From contig NZ_QGGI01000002.1 in assembly GCF_003148465.1 (NCBI RefSeq), positions 1-64,000 of the forward strand: 64,000 nucleotides of DNA, given 5' to 3'. Source of the DNA: Oceanotoga teriensis (lineage in GTDB: Bacteria > Thermotogota > Thermotogae > Petrotogales > Petrotogaceae). Position 1 is the stretch's first letter; each line of letters begins with the position of its first letter. Shown one piece after another: positions 4,408 through 10,617 of this stretch. The notes beneath the pieces were generated by a model, which had not been told where the DNA came from, searched no databases, and saw only the letters and a program-made list of their open reading frames with translations. Made by a program: the position numbers and the translations under genes.

Positions 4408-4420
4408 AATATTATAAATT

Positions 4421-4748
4421 AAGTAAAACGGATGATCGCAGATGAATAAATCATTTGAGGAAAGTCCAGACTCTAAGGGCAGGGTGCCAGTTTAAATACT
4501 GGAAGGAGAAATCCTTGGAATAGGGCCATAGAAAAGAAACCACCTTTTTTTATAAAAGGTAAGGATGGAAAGGCGAGGTAAGAGCTCACCAGTGTCAGGG
4601 TAACCTGATAGCTCGGTAACCCCCACCTTGAGCAAGATCAAACAGAAAAGTTAAAGTTGCCCGCTAAGTATTTAATTATACTGCTTTTCAGGTAGATCGC
4701 TTAGATAGATGATCATCTATTACAGAATCTGGCTTATAGTTTTACTTG
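4421..4748 (+). ncRNA. rnpB: RNase P RNA (bacterial type A-like)
   Basis: This is the catalytic RNA of ribonuclease P, which removes 5' leaders from tRNA precursors. Conserved core sequences are visible: GAGGAAAGTCC near the 5' side (about 4456) and ACAGAATCTGGCTTATAG near the 3' end. The two ends pair perfectly over nine bases (P1: 4421-4429 with 4739-4747), which sets the boundaries. The GGTAACCCCACC segment in the middle also fits. A terminator follows directly. The protein subunit rnpA is not in the window. Confidence 0.94.
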
Positions 4749-4774
4749 AAAAAACTCCCTACGGGGAGTTTTTT
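4749..4774 (+). terminator. Terminator of rnpB with a TACG tetraloop
   Basis: The stem 4749-4759 pairs with 4764-4774 around the loop TACG. Closed by a C-G pair, this gives the very stable c(UACG)g tetraloop. The A/T flanks supply a T-run for rnpB and also an A-run that could serve mntP, whose stop codon lies at 4773-4775 on the other strand. Confidence 0.88.
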
Positions 4775-5353: not shown

Positions 5354-5392
5354 AAAAAAAGACTTTTGACAGGTAAAAACCTGTCAAAAGTC
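5354..5392 (-). terminator. Conditional terminator of the mntP riboswitch
   Basis: A perfect 14-bp stem (5361-5374 with 5379-5392) has an AAAA loop. On the minus strand a run of seven T follows (5360-5354). One arm shares the GAGAC bases of the aptamer, so ligand binding and termination should exclude each other. Confidence 0.88.
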
Positions 5393-5484
5393 TCGCAATA
5401 TATTAAAAAATATATGATAAAACCAGGCAATTAAGCCATTATGTTGATTTTATCTCCTTAAAAGGCAGCTACTCCCTTTCAACA
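5361..5484 (-). promoter_or_regulatory. yybP-ykoY manganese riboswitch with expression platform
   Basis: Read on the minus strand, this leader shows the yybP-ykoY signature: AAGGGAGTAGC near the 5' side (about 5480-5469), ATCAACATAATGGC in the middle, and GCGAGAC at the 3' side of the aptamer (5396-5390). In known members Mn2+ binding stabilises the aptamer and lets transcription continue. Here the 3' GAGAC strand is also part of the following terminator stem, the overlap expected for a switch. A TATAAT -10 lies upstream at 5490-5495 (minus strand). The downstream gene is mntP. Confidence 0.88.
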
Positions 5485-5540: not shown

Positions 5541-5565
5541 AAAAGACTCCTTTAAGGAGTCTTTT
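5541..5565 (-). terminator. Terminator after thrS
   Basis: A ten-bp stem, AAAGACTCC-type, lies at 5541-5550 and 5556-5565 with a short loop. A/T tails flank it on both sides. On the minus strand it overlaps the thrS stop codon and ends the prfA-thrS unit. Confidence 0.82.
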
Positions 5566-7477
5566 AATAACTTAACTTTAATTTTCTACTTTTAATTTCA
5601 TCTTTTAGTGTATTTATAAAATCTTCAACTTTTATATTATCTACATTATTATTTTCTCTTGTTCTTATATTTATAAAATCACTTGAAAGTTCTTTTTCTC
5701 CAAAAACAATCATATATGGTATTTTTTTCATTTGTTCTTCTCTTATTTTATATCCAACAGTTGAATCAGATATATTAAGGCTAACCCTTATACCATGTTT
5801 TTTTAATTCTTTGGCAAATTTTGTAGCACCATCATTATATTTTTCTGATACAGAAATTATTGAAACTTGTTCAGGAGACATCCATGTAGGAAATGCACCG
5901 GCAAAACTTTCGATTAAAATACCAAAAAATCTTTCAATAGAACCAAATATAGCTCTATGCAACATAACAGGTCTAATCTCTTCATTGTCTGGATTTACAT
6001 AAGTCATATTAAATCTTTCAGGCATTTGAAAATCTAATTGTAAAGTAGCACATTGCCATTTTCTTCCTAAAGAATCTGTGACATAAAAATCTATTTTAGG
6101 ACCATAAAAAGCACCATCGCCTTCATTTATTTGAAATTTAGTATTAGATTTTTCAAGTGCTGTTCTAAGTGCGCTAATAGCTAAATCCCAAGTTTCAACA
6201 TCACCCATATGATCTTCTGGCATGGTAGACAATTTAGCTTCATATTCAAATCCAAAAACAGAATATAATTCATCGATTAAATCCATAACACCTATTAATT
6301 CATCTTGAATTTGATCTTTAGTACAAAAGATATGAGCATCATCTTGAGTAAAAACTCTAACTCTAAAAAGTCCGTGTAAAACTCCACTTCTTTCATATCT
6401 ATGAACTTTACCAAATTCAAACATTCTAATAGGAAGATCTCTATAGCTTTTTATATCTTTATTATAAATAACTATATGTCCTGGACAATTCATTGGTTTA
6501 ACGGCCATTTCAGTATCTTCTTTTTCTGTAAAAAACATATTATCTTGATAATGATCCCAATGACCTGATTGATGCCAAAGATTTACATTCATTATTTGAG
6601 GAGTTTCAACTTCAAAATATCCATATTTTTCATGTATTTCTCTTGAAACTTGTTTCATTTCATTTAAAGCTATAGTTCCTCTTTCTAAGAAAAAAGGCAT
6701 ACCTGGTGCAACATCTGTATCTATTGTAAATAGACCTAATTGAGGTCCAAGTTTTCTATGATCTCTTTTTTTTGCTTCTTCAAGTAAATGTAAATGCTCA
6801 TCCAATTCATTTTTTTTAGTAAATGCTGTTGCATAAATTCTCTGTAACATTTTATTATTTTCATCACCTTTCCAGTAAGCACCAGAAACCGATAAAAGTT
6901 TAAAATGTTTTATAAATTTTGTAGAAGGCATATGAGGGCCTCTACATAGATCTATAAAATCTCCTTGTTTATATATAGAAACATTTTCATCATTTATAGA
7001 ATCTATTAATTCAAGTTTATAAGGCTGATCTTTAAAAAGTTCCTTTGCGGAGTCTTTTGAAACGATACTTCTTTTTATGGGAATATCTTCTTTAACTATT
7101 TTTTTCATTTCACTTTCAATTTTTTCAAAATCGTCTTCACTTATCTTTTCTTCAAGATCAAAGTCATAATAAAAACCATTTTCAATAGTAGGTCCAATGG
7201 CAACTTTTACATTATCATATATTCTCATAACAGCTTGTGCCATTATGTGAGCAACAGTATGTCTGTATATTTTTGGGGCATCATCATCTTTGAGCGTTAT
7301 TATACTGACTTCAGAATCTTCTTCAATAGCAGTATCCAAATCTTTTAATTCACCATTTATTTTTGCACCAATAGAATTTCTAAAAAGACCTTCAGAAATC
7401 GATTTAGCTATTTCAGAAGCTTTTATTCCGATTTCAAACTCTTTAATGCTTCCATCTGGCAGTTTTATTTTAACCAT
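5564..7477 (-). CDS. thrS: Threonyl-tRNA synthetase, 637 aa
   Basis: This class II enzyme attaches threonine to tRNA-Thr. The domains are in the usual order: TGS (about 1-60), the second N-terminal editing domain with HTVAHIMAQAV and a Cys-His pair in DLCRGPHMPSTK, the catalytic core with KPMNCPGHI (zinc Cys), RVRVFTQDDAHIF and QLDFQMPERF, and the C-terminal anticodon-binding domain. The length is typical. ATG at 7477 is chosen over an in-frame GTG nine bases earlier because that GTG is part of the GAGGTG ribosome site. It overlaps the small membrane gene upstream and shares its transcript. No T-box is visible before it; control may come from the leader at 9.1-9.3 kb. Confidence 0.96.
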   Translation of the reverse strand: MVKIKLPDGSIKEFEIGIKASEIAKSISEGLFRNSIGAKINGELKDLDTAIEEDSEVSIITLKDDDAPKIYRHTVAHIMAQAVMRIYDNVKVAIGPTIENGFYYDFDLEEKISEDDFEKIESEMKKIVKEDIPIKRSIVSKDSAKELFKDQPYKLELIDSINDENVSIYKQGDFIDLCRGPHMPSTKFIKHFKLLSVSGAYWKGDENNKMLQRIYATAFTKKNELDEHLHLLEEAKKRDHRKLGPQLGLFTIDTDVAPGMPFFLERGTIALNEMKQVSREIHEKYGYFEVETPQIMNVNLWHQSGHWDHYQDNMFFTEKEDTEMAVKPMNCPGHIVIYNKDIKSYRDLPIRMFEFGKVHRYERSGVLHGLFRVRVFTQDDAHIFCTKDQIQDELIGVMDLIDELYSVFGFEYEAKLSTMPEDHMGDVETWDLAISALRTALEKSNTKFQINEGDGAFYGPKIDFYVTDSLGRKWQCATLQLDFQMPERFNMTYVNPDNEEIRPVMLHRAIFGSIERFFGILIESFAGAFPTWMSPEQVSIISVSEKYNDGATKFAKELKKHGIRVSLNISDSTVGYKIREEQMKKIPYMIVFGEKELSSDFINIRTRENNNVDNIKVEDFINTLKDEIKSRKLKLSY

Positions 7478-7478
7478 A

Positions 7479-7922
7479 TTAATCACCTCTATACTGATCT
7501 TCAGAAATTTTTTTGTTTAAAAAAATAAAAATATCCATTATAAAAAAATGATAAAAAATATTTTTATAGGGTATATATAATTCGTTTTCCAATAAAAAAT
7601 TTTTCAATAAAATAGAGTTTATATAAATAAAAATTATAACAAATAATAAAAAATAAAAAATATTTATATAAATAAAACTTGCAACAAAAAGTAAAGCAAT
7701 ACTTATTACTGAATAAATTATTAAAAATATATTAGATTTAATATCATCATCTTTTTTTAAATTTTTTTCAAAAGAATAAATACCAAACAGAAAAATAAAT
7801 TGAGTTAAGGTAAAAAGTATAATGCTTAAAATAGAAAAATTGCCACTTAAAGTACTATCAACGAACCCAGACAATAAAGCTAAAATAAAAAATGAGCTAA
7901 ATAATAAATTTATTCCTTTCAT
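7479..7922 (-). CDS. Small membrane protein of unknown function, 147 aa
   Basis: I do not recognise this protein. It has four or five hydrophobic segments (about residues 5-22, 28-47, 64-82, 84-106 and a weaker one near 125-138) and a charged loop near 50-60. It sits between prfA and thrS with 16 bases to prfA, and its stop lies directly before the thrS start, so the three genes are surely cotranscribed. GGGGGTG precedes the ATG. Nothing in the sequence links it chemically to tRNA or translation; its job is unknown. Confidence 0.6.
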   Translation of the reverse strand: MKGINLLFSSFFILALLSGFVDSTLSGNFSILSIILFTLTQFIFLFGIYSFEKNLKKDDDIKSNIFLIIYSVISIALLFVASFIYINIFYFLLFVIIFIYINSILLKNFLLENELYIPYKNIFYHFFIMDIFIFLNKKISEDQYRGD

Positions 7923-7938
7923 ACAACACCCCCATAAA

Positions 7939-9009
7939 TTAAATAGAAAGATTTTCTAATTTAATCATTAAATCATGTTCTATAAGTTTGTCAAGTATTT
8001 CATCTATTTCTCCATCCATTATACTTTCAATTCTATAAGTAGTATAATTAATTCTATGATCAGTTACTCTATTTTGAGGAAAATTATAAGTTCTTATTTT
8101 TTCAGATCTATCGCCTGTACCTATTTGATGACGTCTTTCAGAAGAAATTTCTTTCTGTTGTTCTTCTAACTGTTTTTCAAATAATTTTGCTCTTAAAATA
8201 TTCATAGCGGCTTCTTTATTTTGATGTTGAGATCTTTCACTTTGATATTGAACAACTATACCTGTTGGTTCATGTGTAATTCTAACTGCAGAATCAGTTT
8301 TATTAACATGTTGACCACCAGCACCTCCAGCTCTATAAGTATCTATTCTCAAATCATTATCATTTATATTCACATCTATACTCGTAACTTCTGGTAATAC
8401 AGCTACTGTTGCCGTAGAAGTGTGAACTCTTCCAGAAGATTCTGTTTGTGGAACTCTTTGTACTCTATGAACGCCACTCTCATATTTTAGTTTCCCATAT
8501 ACACTTTTTCCTTTGATTTTTATTATGGCATATTTGAGTCCACCAATTCCATTATCATTTACATCCATAGTCTCATATTTCCAATTATTTCTTTCGGCAT
8601 ATCTTATATACAATCTCATCAACTCAGAAGCAAATAAACCTGCTTCATCTCCACCAGCACCAGCTCTAAGTTCCATTAAAATATTTCTTTCATCATATTT
8701 ATCAGAAGGTACTAATAATTTAATGAGTTCTTTTTCTAAAGAATCTTTATTATATTGTAAATCTTGACTCATAGAATTATACTCTTCTTCATCGAGCTCA
8801 TGAGAATTGTACATTTCAGATAAAGCAGATATATCTTCATTAACAGTTTCAAGATCATTATAAAGTTCTTTTAGCTGATTTAGTCTTGTATGTTCCATAC
8901 CATATTTTTGTAAACTCTCTGGATCAGTTATTATATCTGGATCAGCGAGTTTAATTTCAAGTTCTTTAAGTTTTTCTAAAATACTATTTTTGAAGCTTAA
9001 TAAGTCCAA
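7939..9009 (-). CDS. prfA: Peptide chain release factor 1, 356 aa
   Basis: This protein recognises UAA and UAG stop codons and triggers release of the finished chain. The GGQ motif is in RAGGAGGQHVNKTDSAVRI (about 225-243), and the preceding VHRVQRVPQTESSGRVHTS block belongs to RF1. The SPF anticodon motif of RF2 is absent. The length is typical. Translation starts at a TTG (9009) behind GGAGGG. It is the first full-length gene of the unit with the small membrane protein and thrS. The usual neighbour prmC is not adjacent. A leader with attenuator features and a second possible promoter lie upstream. Confidence 0.95.
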   Translation of the reverse strand: MDLLSFKNSILEKLKELEIKLADPDIITDPESLQKYGMEHTRLNQLKELYNDLETVNEDISALSEMYNSHELDEEEYNSMSQDLQYNKDSLEKELIKLLVPSDKYDERNILMELRAGAGGDEAGLFASELMRLYIRYAERNNWKYETMDVNDNGIGGLKYAIIKIKGKSVYGKLKYESGVHRVQRVPQTESSGRVHTSTATVAVLPEVTSIDVNINDNDLRIDTYRAGGAGGQHVNKTDSAVRITHEPTGIVVQYQSERSQHQNKEAAMNILRAKLFEKQLEEQQKEISSERRHQIGTGDRSEKIRTYNFPQNRVTDHRINYTTYRIESIMDGEIDEILDKLIEHDLMIKLENLSI

Positions 9010-9036: not shown

Positions 9037-9045
9037 ATTATATCA
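9037..9045 (-). promoter_or_regulatory. Possible internal extended -10 promoter for prfA
   Basis: On the minus strand the bases read TGATATAAT, an extended -10 box (TG-n-TATAAT) about 30 bases before the prfA start and downstream of the attenuator terminator. No good -35 is visible. If active it would give basal prfA-thrS transcription that bypasses the attenuator. Confidence 0.4.
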
Positions 9046-9093
9046 TATTAATTTTTAATAAAATATATTCTTTTGAAAGAATATTGTAAATAT

Positions 9094-9188
9094 AAAAAAT
9101 AAAAGGCGCTGAAGTCTATTCAGCGCCTTGATAATTATCAAATAATTTTACAATGACAGACATACAGCGTCATTGTAAGGGCGCTGAA
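9094..9188 (-). promoter_or_regulatory. Candidate transcription attenuator of the prfA-thrS unit
   Basis: Three copies of one 9-base element alternate in sense on the minus strand. Segment 1 is TTCAGCGCC (9188-9180), inside the leader reading frame. Segment 2 is GGCGCTGAA (9127-9119). Segment 3 is TTCAGCGCC again (9113-9105). Pairing 2:3 extends to 11 bp and runs into a T-tract (from 9104), making a terminator. Pairing 1:2 (9 bp) would prevent it. Between them a 10-bp hairpin (9148-9157 with 9169-9178) encloses the leader stop codon. Segment 1 can also form a 5-bp stem CAGCG:CGCTG with 9167-9163. The alternatives are seen in the sequence; the control mechanism is inferred. Confidence 0.62.
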
Positions 9189-9231
9189 ATCTGGTAGTGG
9201 TATTAAATTTTTTTATAAACATTTTATACAT
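9148..9231 (-). CDS. Candidate leader peptide with three consecutive Thr codons, 27 aa
   Basis: This is a short reading frame with a good ribosome site (GAGGTGG, 9243-9237, five bases before the ATG). It encodes a 27-residue peptide with NTTTRF at residues 10-15, ending VCLSL before TAA. The Thr codons are ACC ACT ACC. Codon use (CAG, CGC, CCT, GAC) is much richer in G and C than in neighbouring genes, as expected where RNA structure constrains the sequence. A strong promoter lies 30 bases upstream and a terminator downstream, and the unit it precedes contains thrS. It resembles amino-acid biosynthesis leader peptides in layout; I know of no described family with this sequence. It could instead be a free small peptide. 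Confidence 0.58.
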   Translation of the reverse strand: MYKMFIKKFNTTTRFQRPYNDAVCLSL

Positions 9232-9260
9232 AAAAACCACCTCATCATCATAATATATAG

Positions 9261-9289
9261 ATTATAACATTCATTAATTAACATGTCAA
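9261..9289 (-). promoter_or_regulatory. Consensus sigma-A promoter for the prfA-thrS leader
   Basis: On the minus strand TTGACA (9289-9284) and TATAAT (9266-9261) are separated by exactly 17 bases; both hexamers are perfect consensus. The -35 overlaps the stop codon of the upstream flavoprotein gene. Predicted start is near 9254, giving about 24 bases before the leader ATG. Confidence 0.85.
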
Positions 9290-10617
9290 ATAGAATTCAA
9301 TCCAGCACTATTCAAAAAATTCCAAGGTTTATTGAAATTGGGTTGAAAGAAAAAATCAATAAAAGCTAAGTCATCAACTTTCATTTTATTTTGTATAAAA
9401 ACTGATATTGTATTAATCGATTGAGTTAAATCTTCTTTAGAAATTATTTGAGCTCCAAGAATAATTTTAGATTTTTTATCATATATCAACTTTAACAGAA
9501 GTTTAGAATAAGTTGGCATAAATTCAGGTCTGTTATTTTCTTTTATTATGGTAGTTTCAATATCAATACCTTTTATTTTTGCCATACTTTCATTTAATCC
9601 AGTTGAAGCAATTTTATTATCATAAATTTTAATACCAGAAGTACCTTGTGTTCCTTTGTAAATTATTTTATCTTCAAAAAGATTAAAAGCAACTAAAGTA
9701 CCCATTCTTACAGCATTTGTTGCTAATGGAATATATTCATAAGTATTTGTAGGATTATATTTAACAGCACAAGCATCTCCTGCTGCATAAACATCTTTAA
9801 CATTTGTATGCATATATTCATCTACTATTATAGCTCCATTTTCCATCATTTTTAATTTATTTTTAAAAAGGTTTGTATTAGGTTTAAACCCTATACATAA
9901 AATGACCATATCTGAGTCATAAGAATTTTTGTCTGTTATCACTTTTTTTACAGAGCCTTTATCATCCTCTTCAAATTTCATAACAGTTTCATCGAGCCTA
10001 AGATTTATACCCTTATTTATCATAGATTCTTCAGCTATACCTGTAATTTCTTCATCTAGGTATTTATTTAATATTCTTTTTTGAGTATCTATTAAAGTCA
10101 CTTTTTTACCAAGTTTTTCAAAAGCTTCTGCAAGTTCAACTCCTATATATCCAGCTCCAATAACTGTAATATTTTCTGAATTTTTTGATTTATTTATGAT
10201 TTCATTAGAATGATTAAAATTTTTTGATAGAAGAATATTTTTTGAATCAATACCCTCTATATCGGGTATTATTGGCCATGAGCCTGTTGAAATCAAAAGT
10301 TTATCATATGAATCTTCGAAAATTTCATTTGTTTTGAGATTTTTAACTTTTAAAACTTTTTTATCAAAATCTACATTTAATATTTCATGAAGCATTTTTG
10401 TATTAACTCCCATACTCTTTAATTCATCTGGAGAAGAATAAAAAAGACCTTGTGGATCTTCAACTGTTTTCTCAATATATAGAGCTATACCACAAGATAA
10501 AAAAGATATATTATCATTTTTTTCATATACAGTTATATCAATATCAGAATAAAGTTCCTTAGACTTTTTTATAGCCGCCGTTCCTGAATGAGTACATCCA
10601 ATTACCACTAATTTCAT
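9286..10617 (-). CDS. nox: NADH oxidase / CoA-disulfide reductase family flavoprotein, 443 aa
   Basis: This FAD-dependent pyridine nucleotide-disulfide oxidoreductase is of the single-cysteine type. The N-terminal FAD-binding motif starts MKLVVIGCTHSGTAA. The redox-active cysteine sits in NISFLSCGIALYI near residue 42, as in water-forming NADH oxidases and CoA-disulfide reductases. The NAD-binding motif is VIGAGYIGVELAEAFEKLG near 155, and the second FAD motif is VYAAGDACAV near 275, with a dimerisation domain at the end. In an anaerobe the likely roles are O2 removal or thiol-disulfide balance; sequence alone does not separate them. The gene is monocistronic, with AAGGAGG before the ATG. No own terminator is evident. 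Confidence 0.85.
   Translation of the reverse strand: MKLVVIGCTHSGTAAIKKSKELYSDIDITVYEKNDNISFLSCGIALYIEKTVEDPQGLFYSSPDELKSMGVNTKMLHEILNVDFDKKVLKVKNLKTNEIFEDSYDKLLISTGSWPIIPDIEGIDSKNILLSKNFNHSNEIINKSKNSENITVIGAGYIGVELAEAFEKLGKKVTLIDTQKRILNKYLDEEITGIAEESMINKGINLRLDETVMKFEEDDKGSVKKVITDKNSYDSDMVILCIGFKPNTNLFKNKLKMMENGAIIVDEYMHTNVKDVYAAGDACAVKYNPTNTYEYIPLATNAVRMGTLVAFNLFEDKIIYKGTQGTSGIKIYDNKIASTGLNESMAKIKGIDIETTIIKENNRPEFMPTYSKLLLKLIYDKKSKIILGAQIISKEDLTQSINTISVFIQNKMKVDDLAFIDFFFQPNFNKPWNFLNSAGLNSI

Follow-up and report, generated by a model that had tools for sequence, protein, structure and literature searches.

The leader studied here lies on the minus strand of contig NZ_QGGI01000002.1 of Oceanotoga teriensis, within a stretch of 64,000 nucleotides that was analysed as a whole and is referred to below as the window. 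It comprises a promoter, a Shine-Dalgarno sequence, a short frame with three consecutive Thr codons and a series of segments capable of alternative pairing, followed by prfA, a small membrane protein gene and thrS (Table 1). A preliminary description of the locus had named the promoter, the Shine-Dalgarno sequence, the 27-codon frame, the Thr codons, three pairing segments (1, 2 and 3, here A, C and D) and a U-tract, and all of these are present on the minus strand at the positions claimed. It had also held that no other terminator precedes thrS, which is correct, the next one on this strand being located past thrS. Hairpin A:B, hairpin Q, the small hairpin TTGATAATTATCAA, the complementarity between the Shine-Dalgarno stretch and the Thr codons, and a second promoter, P2, are elements beyond those first reported. 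Transcription from P1 would be expected to start near 9254. On the far side of the leader, a gene resembling NADH oxidase/CoA-disulfide reductase occupies 9286-10617, between the yceD-rpmF side and prfA, and is missing at the prfA locus of the nearest relative (L028). A class A RNase P RNA is encoded on the plus strand of the window at 4420-4752.

Table 1. Features of the leader, of the downstream operon and of related leaders. Positions are those of the window unless a locus (L), genome (G) or contig (C) handle is given.
Feature	Position	Strand	Remarks
Promoter P1, TTGACA-17-TATAAT with extended -10 (TG)	9261-9289	minus	consensus match 12/12
Shine-Dalgarno GAGGTGG	9237-9243	minus	5 nt 5' of leader ATG (ATG at 9231)
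Leader frame MYKMFIKKFNTTTRFQRPYNDAVCLSL	9148-9231	minus	27 aa; stop UAA (TAA 9150-9148)
Control codons ACC ACT ACC	9193-9201	minus	Thr-Thr-Thr
Segment A (1) TTCAGCGCC	9180-9188	minus	antiterminator 5' arm
Hairpin Q, TTACAATGAC / GTCATTGTAA	9148-9178	minus	nested in A:C antiterminator
Segment B GACGCTG	9165-9171	minus	alternative partner of A
Small hairpin TTGATAATTATCAA	9128-9141	minus	in antiterminator (three-way junction)
Segment C (2) AAGGCGCTGAA	9119-9129	minus	partner of A (antiterminator) or D (terminator)
Segment D (3) TTCAGCGCCTT	9103-9113	minus	intrinsic terminator 3' arm; TTCAGCGCC copy at 9113-9105
Terminator U-tract TTATTTTTTA	9093-9102	minus	
Promoter P2, extended -10 TGATATAAT	9037-9045	minus	-33 from prfA start; downstream of attenuator terminator
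prfA	7939-9009	minus	peptide chain release factor 1; TTG start; TIGR00019
Small membrane protein gene	7479-7922	minus	weakly YwiC-like
thrS	5564-7486	minus	threonine--tRNA ligase; overlaps stop of small gene; TIGR00418
Intrinsic terminator after thrS	5359-5394	minus	
serS2 leader, putative Ser-Ser attenuator	L119, G000:C3:~139905-139755	minus	serS2 in this genome only within the family
trpS leader TGG TGG TGG (Trp3)	L224, L225; G000:C4:~71840-72040, G004:C3		tandem hairpins; two genera
asnA leader, Asn runs and putative attenuator	L244 1372-1478 = G000:C3:148675-148781; also L245-L263	plus	
thrS2 leader, putative Thr4 attenuator before second ThrRS gene	L223 ~678-800 (G011:C342); L221 ~700-860 (G007:C184)		

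The leader can adopt two mutually exclusive structures, the antiterminator A:C and the intrinsic terminator C:D with its U-tract. The core of segment C, GGCGCTGAA at 9127-9119, is the complement of TTCAGCGCC, and the loop between A and C is filled by hairpin Q and TTGATAATTATCAA. Folding calculations gave -17.1 kcal for the C:D terminator, -27.7 kcal/mol for A:C with its nested hairpins and approximately -27.5 kcal/mol for hairpin Q together with the terminator. Segment A can also pair with segment B (CAGCG at 9187-9183 with CGCTG at 9170-9166), forming a hairpin that may cause pausing in the leader. The minimum-energy fold pairs the Shine-Dalgarno stretch GGTGGT with the Thr codons (ACCACT).

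It can be observed that several of these elements are rare. The sequence TTCAGCGCC occurs three times in the 64-kb window against an expectation of 0.03, in a genome with a G+C content of 26.6%. When 100 terminators from 464 kb of the genome were compared, the thrS leader alone carried 9 nt or more of its terminator 3' arm a second time upstream; the next-best case, a tandem terminator, reached 7 nt. The fold of the leader has a z value of -4.1. In the long frames of the window, Thr-Thr-Thr was found twice in 17,922 aa, and ACC represents 6% of the Thr codons.

The influence of ribosome position was analyzed by masking the ribosome footprint at each leader codon and then folding the RNA at equilibrium, so that the values do not describe kinetics. 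The probability of the terminator was 1.00 for the free RNA and for nearly all ribosome positions. With the A site at codon 10 it decreased to 0.51, and with the A site at the first Thr codon to 0.37, the antiterminator being favoured at codons 10-12 only. A ribosome beyond the first or second Thr codon covers segment A, masking it between codon 12 or 13 and codon 22 or 23, and the probability returned to 1.00 once A was masked and also at the stop codon. The dip was obtained with downstream footprint edges of +12 to +15, was weak at +16 and was gone at +17; it became shallower at 45-60 C, where values of 0.41 to 0.53 were obtained at the first Thr codon. Both segment A and hairpin Q are required for it, and mutating A in silico abolished it. 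The earlier proposal that a ribosome at the first Thr codon leaves segment 1 free and promotes antitermination, while a ribosome that has moved onward masks it, is thus reproduced by the fold model for footprints up to +15.

Known RNA families do not account for the leader. The scan of the window against the Rfam leader families, including the enterobacterial Thr_leader, returned no match at the gathering score, and within the leader there was none down to E = 10; a riboswitch or another known RNA family was ruled out on this basis. The T-box (RF00230) was found in 0 of 103 Thermotogota genomes, while the positive controls were detected. The leader had no match in the viral collection, its peptide matched no protein family, and a mobile or repeated element was rejected, no further copies of the leader having been found.

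Conservation at the locus itself, which had been put forward as a check, was not observed: none of the 20 other family genomes has the leader before prfA, and the region there contains other genes or a short promoter. At 46 loci from other Thermotogota families, no convincing Thr leader with a terminator was detected upstream of thrS. By itself, the absence at prfA-thrS would weaken the claim of attenuation. None of the 20 comparison genomes belongs to the genus of the window genome, and for this reason selection on the thrS leader is not directly demonstrable. What is conserved before prfA is promoter P2, since TGNTATAAT is found at -31 to -34 in 7 other family genomes and at -25 in 1 more; the P2 motif is also enriched in the window (24 versus 11.3). 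Because P2 is conserved and lies downstream of the terminator, the attenuator cannot be the sole control of prfA-thrS. Judged from its sequence, the operon has its own conserved promoter, and the attenuator would be a regulated addition to a constitutive supply. In several relatives (L030, L031, L034, L037) an inverted repeat, GGTGTTT(n)AAACACC, is located between the Shine-Dalgarno sequence and the TTG start of prfA, possibly serving translational control of this gene.

The wider check for matching leaders was positive, with candidates before asnA throughout the family, before trpS and serS2 and, in two relatives, upstream of a second ThrRS gene. The scan of the window genome covered 1.258 Mb (45% of its length), with 551 terminators and 49 intergenic leader-like frames, the frames being ranked by the pairing between leader and terminator arm. 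The three highest run-bearing frames were Thr3 before thrS (-17.2 kcal), Asn7 before asnA (-15.8) and Trp3 before trpS (-13.0), each run matching the amino acid of the gene that follows. Runs in frames that lie within genes (QQQ at C4-83467, LLL and VVV) were discarded as spurious, and the Leu-rich frame at C2:89071 belongs to tsf, read out of frame. The terminator scan also picked the region before asd-lysA-dapA (L078 6278-6453), which is a lysine riboswitch rather than a leader attenuator and serves as a positive control for the scan. As trpE was not found, no trp operon leader was available for comparison.

The gene serS2 (TIGR00414) is a second, divergent serS, 42% identical to the ordinary one. 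Upstream of it are located a promoter, a Shine-Dalgarno sequence, the frame MINNIKNFNIVLSSNLQHRFDSCEFVNLF with TCC TCC (Ser-Ser) and a terminator, the 5' arm of which can pair with ACAGCATCG, directly 3' of the Ser codons. The terminator probability here reached a minimum of 0.08 at the first Ser codon, before A was masked, and a second dip was present near the stop. Three further leaders were seen in the genome. The frame MKMRYRRRSFEMNNYFIILLTSCSL (MKMRYRRRSF...), before a polar amino acid ABC transporter (G000:C1 ~19808, minus; L177), is a weaker leader and a candidate Arg-responsive attenuator. A leader frame with tandem hairpins before an ABC-F protein gene (G000:C4 ~31265, plus; L167) may represent an antibiotic-responsive attenuator. 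Finally, MKCIKLLKAKIYILNTYMCMTWRNRSLSHVYFVM is accompanied by a strong terminator at a contig end (G000:C4 ~233, minus; L166).

The asnA leader (asparagine synthetase A, NF005054) was found in 18 of the 19 readable family genomes, and in the nineteenth, G006, the covariance model located it further upstream; it has no Rfam match. The peptides are typically of the form ...NNNNN-x-QRR or QRW. An A:C pairing of 7-11 bp and a C:D terminator are present in 18/18 of these leaders. For C:D, 97% of the cells were paired with 4 double-change pairs, and 0/500 shuffles scored as high. For A:C, 91% were paired and 1 pair was changed on both sides, with 3/500 shuffles for pairing and covariation; this pairing is well conserved and its covariation is modest. 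The border between ribosome positions leaving A free and those masking it falls inside the Asn run in 18/18 leaders, and likewise inside the Thr run of the thrS leader. The A:B arrangement, CAGCG:CGCTG in the thrS leader, is also present in many asnA leaders. Matches to the asnA-leader covariance model were obtained in 24/103 Thermotogota genomes, including the asnA leaders of two further families, and in G011 the model also matched the region directly before the second ThrRS gene. Against the thrS leader, which has the same A-B-C-D plan, it gave 20.3 bits and E = 1.4 in 1.258 Mb, a match short of significance that does not establish common ancestry of the two leaders.

In G011 and G007 the second gene was identified as ThrRS by TIGR00418, and its leader reads MLKYKLSITTTTN[S/N]AGKRRCKF, in which ACA ACT ACC ACC stands ahead of a segment complementary to the terminator arm. 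It represents a further Thr leader, independent of the one before prfA-thrS, at a ThrRS gene in the same bacterial family. These thrS2 leaders showed no equilibrium dip in terminator probability, although A:C can form, and the calculation for trpS took the last hairpin only; the values for trpS and thrS2 are not counted as support. Elsewhere in the relatives, a leader with an Asp run, MSVLSFKKVDDDIIAP, was seen before an AspRS/AsnRS-like gene (L286; G007:C222:34302-34405, minus). At L289-L293 (G014, G002, G016, G018, G012), a gene judged gltD-like by eye has an Asn run and CAGCGTCGG at its C-terminal end and is separated from amtB, downstream, by a terminator; this gene end may act as a leader peptide. 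A tentative reading of all these cases, about which we are rather more doubtful than confident, is that Thermotogota possess a lineage-wide, re-targetable class of attenuators, found at asnA in at least three families, re-used with changed control codons at thrS, thrS2, serS2 and the aspS-like gene, and in one genus employing the C-terminal codons of an upstream gene as the amtB 'leader'. The common plan proposed for this class, as part of the same reading, would be control codons, approximately 3-9 nt, a CAGCG-type segment A, and then B, C and D.

Based on the sequence elements and their statistical peculiarity, on a design that recurs and is conserved at cognate genes, and on the predicted dependence on ribosome position, the stretch 9289-9094 can with good confidence be regarded as a leader-peptide (ribosome-mediated) transcription attenuator sensing the charging of Thr-tRNA. 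In the proposed process, RNA polymerase would start at P1 and synthesize the leader, with a ribosome following and translating the frame. When Thr-tRNA is ample, the ribosome would pass ACC ACT ACC and cover segment A as C and D emerge, whereupon C:D would form and transcription would end near 9094. When Thr-tRNA is scarce, the A site of the waiting ribosome would hold the first (or second) Thr codon; the ribosome would cover the competing 5' part and leave A free. The antiterminator A:C, a three-way junction with hairpin Q, would then form, and read-through into prfA-orf-thrS would yield extra transcription. Promoter P2, downstream of the terminator, would provide a basal, unattenuated supply. 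The number of control codons, three only, counts against this interpretation, and the ACC codons could also be kept through their pairing with the Shine-Dalgarno stretch. Threonine-responsive attenuation, as first suggested, is upheld as the best explanation of the leader and not as the only control of the operon, which P2 contradicts.

Among the alternatives, the one that survives best, albeit unlikely, regards the hairpin as the terminator of the upstream NADH-oxidase/CoA-disulfide-reductase-like gene and segment A as the relic of a duplicated terminator arm, with prfA-thrS served by P2 only. That gene, which ends at 9286, lacks any other terminator, a tandem pair of near-identical terminators exists elsewhere in this genome, and both the conservation of P2 and the joint absence of the gene and the leader before prfA in relatives fit such an origin; yet a perfect P1, a Shine-Dalgarno sequence and a frame would be left unexplained, as would the placement of three Thr codons at the very point at which stalling of the ribosome frees A, the hairpins filling the A-C loop, and the same design at asnA, trpS, serS2 and thrS2. 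Appreciably less probable is a free-standing small RNA or small mRNA transcribed from P1, in which the ACC-rich stretch sequesters the Shine-Dalgarno sequence and the function is unrelated to prfA-thrS. With P1 and the terminator alone an RNA of approximately 160 nt would be produced, the GGTGGT:ACCACT pairing belongs to the minimum-energy fold and prfA is served independently by P2, but the logic of cognate codons would then be a coincidence, and this RNA has no Rfam match, no copy in relatives and no peptide family match. Control linked to RF1, raised in the preliminary description, whereby a ribosome waiting at the leader stop would free A and raise prfA expression when RF1 is short, is highly improbable: prfA is indeed the first gene and segment 1 is not covered by a ribosome at the stop, but the terminator stays formed at a probability of 1.00 in that position, both RF1 and RF2 recognize the UAA stop, and the sister leaders all correspond to the amino acid of the gene they precede, not to release factors.

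Shortage of threonine is very probably what the thrS leader responds to, and switches of this kind are common in its family. If this is true, anaerobic and often thermophilic bacteria would use the translating ribosome to sense the supply of aminoacyl-tRNA at genes for aminoacyl-tRNA synthetases and asparagine synthetase, and tight coupling of transcription and translation would be needed at elevated temperature. The asnA leaders provide a comparative set of 19 genomes, and thrS and thrS2 would illustrate how one type of control arises at more than one ThrRS gene.

Leader-peptide attenuation is textbook knowledge for Proteobacteria and Actinobacteria, with later cases from Firmicutes. In E. 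coli, ThrRS binds a tRNA-like mRNA operator of thrS, a translational autoregulation; thrS is regulated there as well, whereas the anatomy described here is transcriptional and includes a leader peptide. The Firmicutes thrS T-box is similar in target gene, in signal (uncharged tRNA-Thr) and in antitermination, but it operates by tRNA binding to RNA, while the sensor in the present thrS leader would be the translating ribosome. In the Fusobacteria/Thermotogae genomes of PMC2494555, zero T-boxes were counted. Naville and Gautheret (2010) knew of no leader-peptide attenuators outside Proteobacteria and Actinobacteria before their own Firmicutes case, and Thermotogota are unmentioned there (PMC2965389). 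The His leader peptides of hisS*/hisZ in bacilli (PMC2965389) are likewise leader attenuators, taking the place of T-boxes before synthetase genes in bacteria other than Proteobacteria and Actinobacteria. The earlier remark that no description of ribosome-mediated thrS attenuation was known from Thermotogota agrees with the literature searched, in which no account of leader-peptide attenuation in this deep-branching phylum was found, most subscription journals lying outside the search. The leader attenuators of trpS/trpRS1 and leuS in Streptomyces (PMC1262725; Vecchione and Sello 2010, cited in PMC4787780) resemble the present cases in that aminoacyl-tRNA synthetase genes, among them auxiliary copies comparable to serS2 and thrS2, are attenuated by way of the ribosome; they differ in belonging to Actinobacteria and in responding to Trp and Leu rather than Thr, Asn and Ser, the comparison being one of design and not of sequence. 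Attenuation at a synthetase operon is also known from the pheST leader (PMC1262725). The pheST (pheM), thr, trp and his leaders of gammaproteobacteria share with the thrS leader a promoter, a short frame of cognate codons, mutually exclusive antiterminator and terminator, and stalling that leads to read-through. Unlike them, the thrS leader has the order A-B-C-D, with A:C spanning B and A directly after the control codons, and it belongs to a different phylum, precedes the gene order prfA-orf-thrS and is accompanied by an internal promoter past the terminator.
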